64,000 nucleotides of DNA from Streptomyces misionensis (GTDB taxonomy: Bacteria; Actinomycetota; Actinomycetes; Streptomycetales; Streptomycetaceae), in NCBI RefSeq assembly GCF_900104815.1, contig NZ_FNTD01000004.1, positions 496,001 to 560,000 on the forward strand, read 5' to 3'. The notes below the pieces were generated by a model. The model was not told the DNA's origin. It did not search any database and worked only from the letters and a program-made list of their open reading frames with translations. The position numbers and the translations under genes are program-made. Position 1 is the stretch's first letter; each line of letters begins with the position of its first letter. This document shows, in pieces, positions 30,679 to 36,579 of the stretch.

Positions 30679-30720
30679 TTGACCGGAGTTTGGTCCAGAC
30701 CAATCATGGCCTAGACCAAT
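30679..30720 (+). promoter_or_regulatory. Chitinase promoter with two DasR-like dre boxes
   Basis: TTGGTCCAGACCAA (30690-30703) and TGGCCTAGACCAAT (30707-30720) match the DasR responsive element (consensus near ACTGGTCTAGACCAGT), also known as the chitin-induction direct repeats of Streptomyces chitinase promoters. TTGACC at 30679-30684 is a likely -35, so the boxes cover the -10 and start region and bound DasR should block transcription until GlcN-6-P-type signals release it. Confidence 0.75.
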
Positions 30721-30790
30721 AGCCCCGGCCGGGCCCTACCGTGCGACACCCCCGCTCGATCGACTGTCGTTCGCTATCCGGGAGTACCCG

Positions 30791-32545
30791 ATGACACGTC
30801 CGAGATCCGTACGCGCCCTGCTCACCGGCGTGGCCACCCTGGCCGCGTCGGCGGGGCTCGCCCTGGGGATCGGGGGCGCCGCGCAAGCGGCGACTCCGCT
30901 GCCCGCGCACGTCTTCGCGCCCTACTTCGAGGCCTACAACGGCGACAGCCCCGCCGCCCTCGCCCAGTCCTCCGGCGTCAAGTACCTGACCATGGCCTTC
31001 CTCCAGACGGAGAAGAAGGGCTCCTGCACGCCGTACTGGAACGGTGACACAAGCACCCCCGTCACCTCCTCCGTCTTCGGCTCCGACTTCACCACCATCC
31101 GCTCGCGCGGCGGCGACGTCATCCCCTCGCTCGGCGGGTACGCGGCCGACAACGGCGGCACGGAGATCGCCGACAGCTGCACCAGCGTCGACTCCATCGC
31201 CGCCGCCTACGAGAAGATCATCACCACCTACGACGTCTCCCGCCTGGACATGGACGTCGAGGACAACTCGCTGACCAACCAGGCCGGCATCGACCGCCGC
31301 AACCAGGCGATCAAGAAGGTGCAGGACTGGGCCGCCGCCAACGGGCGCTCGGTGCAGTTCTCCTACACCCTGCCGACCACGACGACCGGCCTCGCCGACA
31401 GCGGACTCGCCGTGCTGCGCAGCGCCAAGAACGCGGGCGCCAAGGTCGACGTCGTCAACCTCATGACGTTCGACTACTACGACGGTGCCACCCACCACAT
31501 GGCCACCGACACCCAGACGGCCGCGACCGGGCTGCACAACCAGCTGGCCTCGCTCTACCCGAACCTGTCGGACAGCCAGCTGTGGAACATGATCGGCGTC
31601 ACCGAGATGCCCGGCATCGACGACTACGGGCCGGCCGAGACCTTCACCACCGACGACGCCACCGCGGTGTACAACTGGGCCGTGTCCAAGGGGCTGAACA
31701 CCCTCTCCTTCTGGGCCCTCCAGCGTGACAACGGCGGCTGCCCCGGCACCGGCGGCTCCGACAGCTGCTCCGGCATCAGCCAGGACACCTGGTACTTCTC
31801 GCACACCTTCGCGCCGTTCTCGGGCGGCACGACCACCCCGCCGGCCAACGACTTCTCGGTCTCCCTCTCCCCCGCCACCGCCTCGGTCGACCCCGGCGGC
31901 TCCACGACGGCGTCCGTGAAGACCTCGGTGACCTCGGGCAGCGCCCAGTCCGTCGACCTGGCCGTCAGCGGCGCGCCGAGCGGGGTGACGGCGACCCTCA
32001 GCCCGACCTCGGTCACCGCCGGTGCCGGCTCCACGCTCACCGTGAAGACGGCCGCCTCCACCGCGCCGGGCAGCTACCAGCTGACCGTCACCGGCACCGC
32101 GGGCTCGACCAAGCACAGCTCCACCTTCAACCTGACCGTGAACGGGACCGGCGGCGGCACCCCCACGGCCCTGGCCAACGGTGACTTCGAGAGCGGTTCG
32201 CTGACGCCCTGGACCTGCGACAGCGGTGCCACGGTGGTCTCCTCCCCGGTGCACGGCGGCAGCCACGCCCTGAAGACCGACGCGACCTCCTCGTCGACCG
32301 GCCAGTGCGCCCAGACCCTCACCCTCAAGCCGAACACGTCGTACACGCTGCAGGGCTGGGTGCAGGGCTCGTACGCCTACCTCGGCGTGAGCGGCGGCGC
32401 GACGGCCAGCACCTGGACCTCGTCCTCGTCCTGGCAGAAGCTGACGGTGCCGTTCACCACCGGCTCCTCCGGCACGGTCACCGTGTACGTGCACGGCTGG
32501 TACGGCCAGGGCACCGTCTACGCCGACGACCTCGCCCTCTCCTGA
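30791..32545 (+). CDS. Secreted GH18 chitinase with C-terminal carbohydrate-binding module
   Basis: A 584-residue secreted enzyme. Signal peptide about 1-33 (ends AQA), GH18 barrel about 34-345 with catalytic DMDVE at 153-157 (Asp153, Asp155, Glu157) and substrate-site MTFDYYDG near 228. A Thr/Pro linker and an Ig-like beta-sandwich follow (about 353-455, [19 protein letters not shown]), then a CBM4/9-like module (about 460-584, [16 protein letters not shown]). It hydrolyses chitin outside the cell to feed the GlcNAc pathway. The two dre-like boxes upstream predict DasR control. A strong terminator follows the gene. Confidence 0.9.
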
Positions 32546-32555
32546 CCCGTCCCCG

Positions 32556-32599
32556 CGGCCGAGCCCACCCGGTGTGACCGAACCGGGTGGGCTCGGCCG
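32556..32599 (+). terminator. Strong terminator after the chitinase
   Basis: An 18-bp perfect stem: arm 32556-32573 (begins CGGCCGAGCC) and arm 32582-32599 (ends GGCTCGGCCG) with an 8-nt loop, 10 nt past the stop codon. Confidence 0.8.
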
Positions 32600-32689
32600 T
32601 CGCGGAGCGGCTCGTGCGGCGGCCGTCCCGTCCGCTTCCGTAGGCTGAAGGGGCCCGAGGCCCCTTCGGTGCAGGCGGGAGGCAGGGTC

Positions 32690-33574
32690 GTGATCGAACT
32701 GGCCGCGGCGTTCGCCGTGGCGGGCGCGGCGAGCAACGCCGTCGGCACCGCGTTCCAGCGCAAGGCCGCCGCCGCGAGCAGCCACGGCGGGATCCGGCTG
32801 CTCGCCGAACTGGTGCGCCGGCCCTTCTGGGTGCTGGGCATGATCGGCGTGGTCGGCGCGGCCCTGTTCCAGAGCCTGGCCCTGGTCAACGGCCCGCTGG
32901 CGCTGGTCCAGCCGCTGTTCATCCTCGAACTGCCCTTCGCGCTGCTGGTCGCCGCCCCGCTGATGCACCGGCGGCTGCCGCACTGGGGCTGGTGGGGCGT
33001 GGCGGGCTGTGTGCTGGGCCTGGCGATGCTGCTGGTCGCGGCCGCGCCGCACGGAGCGCTCGACCAGGCCCCGCTCAGCCGGTGGATCCCGGCGCTGTCC
33101 CTGTGCGTCGGCGCCATGGCGGGCTGTGTGCTGCTGGCCGCTCCCGGGCGCCCGGCGGCCCGGCGCGCCGCACTGCTGGCGGCCGCCTCCGCCACCGGCA
33201 ACGCGCTGACGGCCGCGCTGCTGAAGTCGGCCTCGGGCACGTTCGCCGACGAGGGCTTCCTGGCGTTCCTGCGTTCTTGGCAGACGTACGGTTTCGCGCT
33301 CGCCGGGGTGGCCGCGGTGCTGCTGCTGGAGAACGCGCTCCAGGCGGGCCCGCTGGTCGCGGCCCAGCCGGCGCTGACCATCGGCGACGCGATGGTGAGC
33401 CTGGTGCTGGGCATCGCCCTGCTCCAGGAGCAGGTGCGCACGGGCTGGTGGCTGGTGCCGGAGGCGTGCGGGGCGCTGCTGATCGTGGCGGGCGTGCTGG
33501 TGCTGAGCCGGGCCGTGCAGCACATCACGGTCGTCCCCGATGCCACGGCGGAGGGCGAGGAGGCCGCCGGGTGA
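32690..33574 (+). CDS. DMT/EamA-like membrane transporter
   Basis: A 294-residue protein with about nine hydrophobic helices arranged as two repeats, as in the drug/metabolite transporter superfamily. Conserved features include FQRKAAAASS near the N-terminus, NGPLALVQPLFILELPFALL and the matching second-half AGPLVAAQPALTIGDAMVSLVLG. GTG with GGGAGG upstream is preferred over a GTG seven codons earlier. It converges on the P450 gene (23-bp gap). Export of the neighbouring RiPP is conceivable but nothing in the sequence shows it. Confidence 0.8.
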   Translation: MIELAAAFAVAGAASNAVGTAFQRKAAAASSHGGIRLLAELVRRPFWVLGMIGVVGAALFQSLALVNGPLALVQPLFILELPFALLVAAPLMHRRLPHWGWWGVAGCVLGLAMLLVAAAPHGALDQAPLSRWIPALSLCVGAMAGCVLLAAPGRPAARRAALLAAASATGNALTAALLKSASGTFADEGFLAFLRSWQTYGFALAGVAAVLLLENALQAGPLVAAQPALTIGDAMVSLVLGIALLQEQVRTGWWLVPEACGALLIVAGVLVLSRAVQHITVVPDATAEGEEAAG

Positions 33575-33597
33575 CCGGGGCGGGGCCGCGCGCCGGG

Positions 33598-34650
33598 TCA
33601 GCTGGGGCGCACCAGCCGTATGTCGTCCACGCCGAGCAGTCCGAGCAGGGGCACCTTGGCGACGCGCTGTCCGGGGTCGACGACCAGCCCGGCGTCCCTG
33701 ATCAGGTCGAGGAGCAGCTCGGCGAGCGGCATGACCATGTGCCGGCCCCAGCAGCGCTCCGACGAGTGGCCGAAGGGCAGATAGCCGGGCGTGGCCTCGG
33801 GGTCCAGGTGGTCCCAGCGTTCGGGGCGGAAGGTGTCGGGGTCGTCCCACAGGGCCGGGTCGCGGTGGGAGAGGAGGGGCAGCAGCAGGACGTCGTCCCC
33901 GGTGCCGATCCGGTCGTCGATCGCCGGGTACTCGGGGGAGGCGTTGCGCAGCAGGTTCCAGGAGGGCGGCAGCAGGCGCAGCGACTCCAGGATGATGTTG
34001 CGGTTCGGGGTGCCCTCGGCGAAGGGCGAGCCCAGCCAGAGCGCGTTGGCCACCAGGGTGGAGACGGTGAAGCAGACCGGTGCGGCGGCCCTGCGGTACA
34101 TGCCCATCGCGTACCGGCGTTCCTGGTAGCCCTCGGCCCGCGCGGTGCGCTCGGCGAGCCCGGTGAGCCGGTCGCCGGGGCGGGGCCAGCCGGGCAGGGC
34201 GGCGCCGACCGCGATGACCGACCAGGTCAGCTTGGGGGTGAGTTCGAGGGTGCGGCTCATCAGCATGCGCAGCCGCCGGGGATCCCGGCCGAGGATGAGG
34301 TCGCGCAGGAAGAGGTGGCCGGTCAGCGGCCAGGAGCCGGTGAGGTCGACGTTCCCGGGCACCGGTCCGGCCAGGGCCTCGCGCACGTCGTTGCCGATGG
34401 TGCGGGTGATCTGGGAGGCCTCGGCGCGGGTGATGGACCGGCCCTGGAGCGGCTTGAAGGTGGGGCGCTCGGTCTCGGTCGCCCGGCGCGCGGCGAGGAT
34501 GCGGTCGGCGACCTCCGGTCCGGCGACGCCGATGGTGTCGGGTTCCAGCCGGAAGAGGTCCTGGCCCAGGTGGTCGCGGATGAGCGCGGCGAGCCGCGGG
34601 TGGAGCACGGTGGTGCGCGTAAGCGCTGCGGACGACGGCGACGGCGGCAT
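33598..34650 (-). CDS. Cytochrome P450 of the atropopeptide (tryptorubin-type) RiPP locus
   Basis: A 350-residue bacterial P450. The heme motif FGHSSERCWG has the thiolate Cys300, the ExxR motif is ESLR (222-225) and FRPERW lies at 274-279. The I-helix, normally AGxxT with an acid before Thr, reads AAPVCFTVST around 189-198, so the usual acid/alcohol proton-relay pair is altered. That fits a radical cross-linking enzyme better than a hydroxylase. It begins 133 bp downstream of a 26-codon precursor gene ending AWYIWY, and the pair matches the atropopeptide architecture in which one P450 forms the C-C and C-N bonds between aromatic side chains. ATG at 34650 with GGAG upstream; a GTG at 34761 lacks a ribosome binding site. 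The P450 family call is certain; the substrate follows from context. Confidence 0.85.
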   Translation of the reverse strand: MPPSPSSAALTRTTVLHPRLAALIRDHLGQDLFRLEPDTIGVAGPEVADRILAARRATETERPTFKPLQGRSITRAEASQITRTIGNDVREALAGPVPGNVDLTGSWPLTGHLFLRDLILGRDPRRLRMLMSRTLELTPKLTWSVIAVGAALPGWPRPGDRLTGLAERTARAEGYQERRYAMGMYRRAAAPVCFTVSTLVANALWLGSPFAEGTPNRNIILESLRLLPPSWNLLRNASPEYPAIDDRIGTGDDVLLLPLLSHRDPALWDDPDTFRPERWDHLDPEATPGYLPFGHSSERCWGRHMVMPLAELLLDLIRDAGLVVDPGQRVAKVPLLGLLGVDDIRLVRPS

Positions 34651-34715
34651 GGCTGGCGCTCCGATGCGACGAAACGGGGGCGAGGGGAGACCGCGCGGCG
34701 GTGGGACAGCGCTGC

Positions 34716-34744
34716 CCGGCCGGCTCGTCACCGAGCACGGCCGG
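34716..34744 (-). promoter_or_regulatory. Hairpin between precursor and P450 genes (possible attenuator)
   Basis: CCGGCCGGCTCG (34716-34727) and CGAGCACGGCCGG (34732-34744) can form a stem of about 12 bp with one bulge and a 5-nt loop. It lies in the 133-bp gap after the precursor stop and before the P450 start. Partial termination here would give more precursor than enzyme message, as in many RiPP operons. Confidence 0.5.
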
Positions 34745-34783
34745 ACAACGATGTCAAGCACGGTACGTGACTGCGAGGCGCCG

Positions 34784-34864
34784 TCAGTACCAGATGTACC
34801 AGGCGCTCGCCTTGAGGCTCTTGCCGGCCGCGACCTTGTTGCGGATGGAGAAGAGAAGCTTCAT
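34784..34864 (-). CDS. Atropopeptide (tryptorubin-type) RiPP precursor peptide
   Basis: A 26-codon gene. The peptide is a basic 20-residue leader (MKLLFSIRNKVAAGKSLKAS) followed by the core AWYIWY and a stop. The ribosome binding site AAAGGAGGTG is near perfect and 5-7 nt from ATG. AWYIWY is, to my knowledge, the residue order of tryptorubin A (Ala-Trp-Tyr-Ile-Trp-Tyr), a polycyclic hexapeptide whose Trp and Tyr side chains are cross-linked by one P450. The P450 gene follows on the same strand. The leader must be cleaved after Ser20 by a protease that is not encoded here. It is easily missed in annotation because of its length. Confidence 0.9.
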   Translation of the reverse strand: MKLLFSIRNKVAAGKSLKASAWYIWY

Positions 34865-35349
34865 CTCTGCACCTCCTTTCGGGATGGGCGGGTGACGCGC
34901 GTCCTCCCGGGGCGGGCCCATGAAGATCACGTGTCGGCGACTCCCGGAAACTTCCCTCACCCATCCACCGAATAATCCCGGCCGGACGCAACGAACGTGC
35001 CAGGTAGCCACTTTCGGTCATTCTTCTGTCAGTGGCGATCCGACTTGACTGGATATCGCAACAAGAGAGCGCCACCCCGGTCGGCAACCCTTCGGCACTG
35101 ATCGCAGGCCGTGCCGATCGTTCGAATGCCGGACGGCGTGACAGCGAGAGCGGACGTGCGACGGCATGCCGCCGCGCGGTTCACCGTCGACAGAATGGCC
35201 GGATGTGTACATGCCGAGCAGGCACGCGACTGCACCCATTCATCTTCTGACGCCCTTTTACACACCACGCCGCACCAAATACCCCGGTTCATAGGCTTAT
35301 CGTCCTTATCGTGCGAGGTGTCGTTCACGACGATCTAGGAGGCGATGGC
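34865..35349. other. Intergenic region holding the RiPP and deacetylase promoters
   Basis: This 485-bp gap is less GC-rich than its surroundings and separates the leftward precursor gene from the rightward deacetylase gene. I see no convincing coding sequence. It must contain both promoters, but no clear -35/-10 pair stands out for the precursor gene; TTGACT at 35045-35050 on the plus strand is the best -35-like hexamer. Confidence 0.5.
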
Positions 35350-36579
35350 GTGACGGCACAGGGAATCAGCCGCCGGAGCATGGCGCGCCTCGGCGTCGGC
35401 GCCGGTCTCGGCATGGCCGTCGGCGCGCTCGGCGGATGCAGCCGGGACGGCTGGTTCGGCTCGTCGGGGCCCGGCGGGCAGCGGCAGGCGCCCCGGCTGA
35501 TCGGCGACGGCTCGACGTCGTACACCGGGCGTCAGCCGAACCAGCCGGAAGCGCCCGCCCCGCTCGAACCCGGCGAGACGCCACCGCAGTTCGTGGTGTT
35601 CTCCTGGGACGGCGCGGGCGAACTCGGCACCGGGCTCTTCCCGCGCTTCCTGGAACTGGCCCGCGCCCACGACGCCCGGATGACCTTCTTCCTGTCCGGC
35701 CTGTACCTGCTGCCGGAGGACAAGAAGCGGCTGTACCGGCCGCCGAACAACCCGGTCGGCGCCTCCGACATCGGCTACCTCACCGACGAGCACGTCCGGC
35801 AGACCCTGAAGTACGTCCGCCAGGCGTGGCTCGACGGGCACGAGATCGGCACGCACTTCAACGGGCACTTCTGCGAGGGCTCCGGATCGGTGGCCGACTG
35901 GACCCCGGCCCAGTGGCGCTCGGAGATCGAGCAGGCCCGGTCGTTCGTCAAGTCCTGGCGCACGAACACCGGTTGGCGCGACGAGCCGCCACTGCCCTTC
36001 GACTACGACAAGGAACTCGTGGGCGGCCGCACCCCCTGCCTGCTCGGCCAGGAGAACCTGCTGCCCGCCGCGCGCGAACTGGGCTGGCGGTACGACGCCT
36101 CGTCGCCGGGCGGGGTGCAGCGCTGGCCGCGCAGACGGAACGGGCTGTGGGACCTGCCGCTCCAGAGCATCCCGTTCCCCGGGCGCGGCTTCGAGGTGCT
36201 GTCCATGGACTGGAACATGCTCGCCAACCAGTCGCAGAACTCGACGCGCGCGCCCTCGTACAACTACCCCTACTGGCGCGCCCAGACGTCCCAGGCGTAC
36301 ATGGCGGGCTTCGACCGGGCGTACGAGACGAACCGGGCGCCGCTGTTCATCGGCAACCACTTCGAGCAGTGGAACGGCGGCATCTACATGGACGCGGTCG
36401 AGGAGGCGCTGCGGCAGATCGCCGGCCGGCCGGAGGTCCGGCTGGTCTCCTTCCGGCAGTTCACCGACTGGCTCGACGTCCAGGACCCGGCGATCCTCGC
36501 GCTGCTGCGCACCCTGGAGGTCGGCGAGAAGCCGGCGGGCGGCTGGAGTTCGTTCCTGCGCCCGCCCAAGCGGGGCTGA
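35350..36579 (+). CDS. Tat-exported lipoprotein of the polysaccharide deacetylase family
   Basis: A 409-residue secreted protein. The N-terminus carries a twin-arginine motif (ISRRSMARLG) followed by a hydrophobic stretch and lipobox LGGC (Cys30). The mature part resembles a NodB-like (CE4) barrel: FVVFSWDGAGELGTGLFPRF with the catalytic/metal Asp, then DGHEIGTHFNGHFC carrying the zinc histidines, and a late GNHFEQWNGG. It probably deacetylates a cell-wall or extracellular glycan at the membrane face. GTG at 35350 with AGGAGG upstream. It ends 7 bp from the convergent RidA-like gene. Confidence 0.8.
   Translation: MTAQGISRRSMARLGVGAGLGMAVGALGGCSRDGWFGSSGPGGQRQAPRLIGDGSTSYTGRQPNQPEAPAPLEPGETPPQFVVFSWDGAGELGTGLFPRFLELARAHDARMTFFLSGLYLLPEDKKRLYRPPNNPVGASDIGYLTDEHVRQTLKYVRQAWLDGHEIGTHFNGHFCEGSGSVADWTPAQWRSEIEQARSFVKSWRTNTGWRDEPPLPFDYDKELVGGRTPCLLGQENLLPAARELGWRYDASSPGGVQRWPRRRNGLWDLPLQSIPFPGRGFEVLSMDWNMLANQSQNSTRAPSYNYPYWRAQTSQAYMAGFDRAYETNRAPLFIGNHFEQWNGGIYMDAVEEALRQIAGRPEVRLVSFRQFTDWLDVQDPAILALLRTLEVGEKPAGGWSSFLRPPKRG

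Follow-up and report, generated by a model that had tools for sequence, protein, structure and literature searches.

The locus raised two questions: whether a 26-codon reading frame and the P450 gene behind it form a biosynthetic cluster of the atropopeptide family, and what lies in the gap that separates them. The DNA analysed, called the window here, is a stretch of 64,000 nucleotides from Streptomyces misionensis (C4:496001-560000), and the short frame encodes a peptide ending in AWYIWY, which we take to be the core of tryptorubin A. Comparison with known families indicated, with a probability of about 0.93, that the window contains a two-gene atropopeptide cluster whose P450 is predicted to cross-link AWYIWY into tryptorubin A. 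The cluster adds another example to a family that is already well described, no difference in kind being found; a predicted hairpin between the two genes may be its only new part, and is a variation on a known theme.

Table 1. Features of the cluster and its upstream neighbour, in window positions.
Feature	Position	Strand	Basis
Atropopeptide precursor gene, 26 codons	34787..34864, stop 34784-34786	minus	Translation; NCBIfam NF038372
Ribosome-binding site AAGGAGGT	34871..34878	minus	6 bases ahead of precursor ATG; read from sequence
Predicted RNA hairpin, no U-tract after	34705..34755	minus	Fold; local z; compensating changes
Atropopeptide-family P450 gene, 350 aa, predicted cross-linking enzyme	33598..34650 (including stop)	minus	PF00067; homologues; tree
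422-aa protein, weakly polysaccharide-deacetylase-like	35311-36579	plus	20.4 bits, below cut-off 23.1

Precursor gene, P450 and family assignment

Translation of the minus strand from 34784 to 34864 gave MKLLFSIRNKVAAGKSLKASAWYIWY followed by a stop codon. The peptide consists of a leader, MKLLFSIRNKVAAGKSLKAS, and the predicted core AWYIWY, with KSLK at residues 15-18 and tryptophan at core position 2. It matched the NCBIfam model tryptorubin_fam (NF038372) with 58.2 bits (E 7.3e-16); the curated cut-off is 33 bits, so the frame cannot be put down to chance. The initial annotation had described a 26-residue gene ending in AWYIWY, with a strong ribosome site and a P450 following on the same strand, which translation and coordinates confirmed; its remark that standard annotation would miss the gene did not hold, because the NCBI model library includes NF038372 for the precursor and the peptide passes its cut-off. 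The 8.47-Mb genome contains a single copy of the peptide, and a search of PDB sequences with an E limit of 10 returned nothing for it. GC-rich DNA often contains short open frames, but a chance frame next to a P450 of another pathway has a negligible probability here and was rejected, given the family-model match, the constant pairing of the precursor with the family P450 across loci, and the conservation of the peptide, which is retained unaltered at locus L015, where three synonymous codon changes are the sole differences.

The P450 start lies 133 bases past the precursor stop on the same strand, and Pfam PF00067 covers residues 218-314 (50.7 bits). The protein search scored 7998 candidates, of which 418 had E up to 1e-3. 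Among the best 120 of these 418, 99 homologues have 347-354 residues, so the ATG at 34650 was favoured over an alternative longer start, a GTG at 34761. Named sources of these 120 listed matches were Streptomyces, Kitasatospora, Streptacidiphilus and one Nonomuraea, with identities of 79% for S. clavuligerus and 77% for the enzymes of both S. jumonjinensis (jum) and S. laurentii (lau), whose clusters the window resembles in this respect. A tree of 91 rows placed a 100% branch between 70 atropopeptide-type P450s and 21 others encoded in the same genome; the outgroup rows came from 21 of 30 P450 loci of the window's own genome, L104 being left out as too short. The window P450 fell on the atropopeptide side together with the jum and laurentii enzymes, as the initial annotation had required of it, and nearest to that of L076 (90% identical). 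Because the outgroup branches of this quick tree were long, the coarse split alone was relied on. A search with the ApyO family gave matches in 200 of 200 genomes, none over the cut-off, and thus no near outgroup, while a PDB sequence search returned distant P450s only (best 9ulw, E 1.4e-10, query residues 210-317).

According to the main text of PMC11450843, atropopeptides are defined by a class-defining P450, a KSLK leader motif and tryptophan at core position 2. All three were found in the window cluster, the P450 being judged by its grouping in the tree and not by the authors' classifier. The same text characterizes the bitryptide subfamily by a core xWxxWx with a KSLK leader, and AWYIWY behind KSLK conforms to this pattern. 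Two other classes were considered and rejected: the aminopyruvatides, as the P450 scored 71.2 bits against an ApyO equivalog minimum of 525 bits, and the biarylitides, whose precursor, according to PMC13417212, is five residues long and comes from an 18-bp gene, while that of the window has 26 residues. The family model, the P450 tree, the published definition and the composition discussed below uphold the initial proposal of a tryptorubin-type family with an AWYIWY core and a two-gene layout. The core AWYIWY is presumably shared with the tryptorubin A cluster, an assignment that composition supports. Further likenesses to that cluster are the 26-residue precursor, KSLK, the tryptophan at core position 2, the single family P450 and the two-gene layout (main text of PMC11450843). 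The accession of the tryptorubin P450 differs between papers, being WP_007820080.1 in PMC11450843 and WP_093582223.1 in PMC11002830.

The genome has 36 PF00067 matches; one lies within the window, and no second P450 was found in its 64,000 nt. Downstream of the P450 and convergent with it is a DMT-family transporter (NF038012, 95.8 bits), present beside the P450 in four of six near relatives versus none of six other loci compared; upstream of the precursor, the divergent gene of the 422-aa protein keeps its position in one of the six near relatives. Further tailoring genes were rejected on these grounds, one P450 in the window and inconstant flanks, in agreement with the earlier statement that no other tailoring gene is nearby. 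The cluster is two genes, and neither flanking gene reads as part of the operon. A frame of 1344 codons (30704-34738, minus strand) overlaps four genes, either on the opposite strand or in another frame, and, by its make-up, looks like a spurious frame of GC-rich DNA.

Matches to NF038372 were detected in 49 of 394 genomes sampled from the window's taxonomic family, in 43 of 392 of its genus (41 over the cut-off), in two of 396 from across the phylum, both belonging to this genus, and in none of 14 control genomes; the family, genus and phylum samples overlap and each includes the window genome, so their counts are not additive. More than 650 atropopeptide clusters have been reported, and precursors with the tryptorubin core are noted to be spread over several clusters (main text of PMC11450843). 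As a predicted tryptorubin producer, the present cluster joins the hundreds of members already reported for the family. The family P450 was present at all 73 precursor- or P450-bearing loci examined and lay just downstream of the precursor in all of the first 30. The precursor pattern was found at 68 of the 73 and missed at L078, L090, L091, L092 and L100, where the family search had detected precursors; L062 had been excluded beforehand. The core AWYIWY occurred in 20 of the 68 precursors examined, the window's included. Two other loci encode a peptide identical to the window's, L015 and the S. misionensis locus L141, whose P450 is 96% alike. The L076 precursor differs in three leader residues with zero synonymous changes, so the constraint on the leader is not strict. 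Twelve loci (L168, L169, L172, L174, L177, L181, L182, L186, L187, L188, L199 and L211) carry a PSLK leader, mostly KSEPSLKQ, unlike the window's, with cores such as AWYFWY.

Predicted product and biosynthesis

The computed composition of linear AWYIWY is C49H56N8O9. The hexapeptide ion reported for the lau cluster, C49H51N8O9+, equals AWYIWY less 6 H, and tryptorubin B was obtained with only lauA and lauB1 (main text of PMC11450843). The fit of both supports AWYIWY as the core of tryptorubin A, although these letters are not printed in the main text of that paper. The initial annotation expected 2 H to be lost per cross-link, which is contradicted by varsorubin B1, with three new bonds and four protons lost (PMC11450843, main text). 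By this bond count, tryptorubin A is expected to be AWYIWY minus 4 H (C49H52N8O9), with a computed [M+H]+ of 897.393, and 826.356 for tryptorubin B.

By analogy with the published relatives, the KSLK motif of the leader would dock on the P450, which would form a C-N bond between Trp2 and Tyr3, a C-C bond between Trp2 and Trp5, and a C-N bond from Trp5 to the backbone. A host protease encoded outside the cluster would then remove the leader to give tryptorubin A, and loss of Ala1 would lead to tryptorubin B.

The P450 might instead bridge AWYIWY otherwise, giving an isomer or a simpler relative of tryptorubin A, as happens where the varsorubins B1 and B2a derive from one cluster and where the single core of the sva cluster gives products with one or three bonds (main text of PMC11450843). 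This was considered quite improbable, given that lauA and lauB1 made tryptorubin B and that the enzyme judged to be LauB1 is the 77% identical one; we infer that the S. laurentii match (P0093) is LauB1, because LauB2 is reported to be only 28% like TryB. Moreover, the same product came from the jum and amyxirubin P450s in spite of an identity of just 59% (PMC11450843, main text for both points). Somewhat less improbable, though still doubtful, is that no peptide arises in the strain because the cluster is not expressed or the P450 is inactive. The P450's own ribosome site, GGAG by eye, looks weak, and in another cluster a ribosome site added before svaB raised the yield 100-fold (main text of PMC11450843); on the other side stand two intact and conserved frames, the full ribosome site of the precursor, and the identical peptide kept in other genomes. 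The formation of tryptorubin A is the preferred prediction.

Two characterized clusters show how close relatives vary. At the jum locus (L207), the genes follow each other as in the window and a hairpin lies in the gap (z -2.3); the core there is AWYIWW, unlike in the window, and the product amyxirubin B. The lau cluster differs by an additional P450, which introduces an ether bond (both products as given in the main text of PMC11450843).

A recurrent predicted hairpin in the precursor-P450 gap

For the 133-base gap a fold of -66.4 kcal/mol (z -2.96) was computed, mainly due to one hairpin (Table 1); the best local hairpin has z -4.6. The same scan against dinucleotide shuffles gave a best local hairpin below z -3 in 51 of 62 precursor-P450 gaps (mean z -4.18), compared with four of 62 regions just before the precursor, none of 62 lying farther upstream and 10 of 61 beyond the P450. 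The 62 gaps are those of the 68 loci minus six shorter than 60 bases (L008, L067, L074, L079, L080 and L096). The scan of named genomes found gaps below z -3 at 42 of 67 actinomycetotal and five of 10 pseudomonadotal loci, with corresponding values of 3/67 and 0/10 before the precursor and 7/65 and 1/10 after the P450. It covered 77 of 80 loci (L175, L205 and L216 were dropped) and shares loci with the 62-gap scan, so the counts are not additive; the L147 "precursor", a false pattern match, is counted in the 67 and was removed from the 111 distinct gaps used below.

The letters of the hairpin differ among relatives, and compensating base changes are present. An alignment of 11 near hairpins, whose structure was drawn from the same rows and thus favours the hairpin, showed pairing in 94.8% of cells and changes on both sides at five of 16 pairs, which none of 500 shuffles reached. 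Sliding the partners abolished the pairing signal; one outer pair was broken in five of the 11 rows. G-U pairs made up 179 of 2266 pairs over the 111 distinct gaps, and because they occur, the analysis leans towards an element acting as RNA and not as a DNA palindrome. No Rfam family matched in 33300-35300 at E up to 1.

In eleven of the 62 gaps, z stays at -3 or higher (L003, L005, L009, L012, L017, L021, L028, L064, L072, L083 and L093), which was counted as evidence against a role of the hairpin; some of them nevertheless fold a clear hairpin, and that of L083 is cut by the chosen P450 start. A convincing hairpin was absent in L003, L005, L064 and L072, in the S. rimosus-like L206 and L209, and also in L074, L079 and L080. 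In the first four and in L206 and L209, which make two groups, it appears to have been lost or replaced.

Possible role of the hairpin

Over the 111 distinct gaps, the hairpin starts at a median of 19 bases past the precursor stop and ends at a median of 29 bases ahead of the P450 start, or of the first codon matched; in 81 gaps this last distance is at most 40 bases. A U-tract, defined as five T in eight, followed the hairpin in none. Because the hairpins end near the P450 start and lack a U-tract, the P450 is likely read from the transcript of the precursor. On such a shared transcript, the hairpin likely keeps P450 output low, below that of the precursor, acting as an attenuator or as a guard of the 3' end.

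The hairpin could alternatively be merely the terminator of the precursor, with the P450 having its own promoter. Strong hairpins are indeed found in some other gaps between same-strand genes of the window and related loci (8 of 41, 60-230 bases long, below z -3), a control drawn with a simple home-made gene finder that may include homologous gaps. This explanation is unlikely, however, given the missing U-tracts and the little room for a promoter that the 81 closely placed hairpins leave; nor was a sigma-70-like site found in 33400-35400, a consensus that Streptomyces promoters often escape. A canonical intrinsic terminator at the hairpin was rejected, since 0 of 111 gaps have a U-tract and the two terminator-like sites lie upstream of the precursor, at 35070-35088. 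Slightly better than even, in our estimate, are the chances of the broader reading, in which a previously undescribed RNA hairpin of about 20 bp without U-tract is common to atropopeptide clusters over a range reaching from Streptomyces to Xanthomonas, Dyella, Collimonas and Burkholderia and would set the expression ratio on one transcript, P450 below precursor, by guarding the precursor 3' end or damping read-through.

No mention of an atropopeptide gap hairpin was found in the open main texts searched; the words hairpin, terminator, stem-loop and intergenic are absent from those of PMC11450843 and PMC12352619, and two papers contain the family name together with such a word, each a single time. 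In bottromycin and lasso peptide clusters, an inverted repeat or predicted terminator lies between precursor and modifying genes (PMC7113386, PMC5974421). Like these attenuator-like hairpins, the window structure separates a precursor from a modifying gene. Its probable function is to set how much P450 is made relative to precursor, and other RiPP clusters are known to use such a strategy. Unlike in those other RiPP classes, the atropopeptide hairpin recurs in most family members and in two phyla, and it does so without the U-tract. As a recurring element it is a simple thing to alter for higher peptide yield, and it may be related to the published yield gain from the svaB ribosome site.
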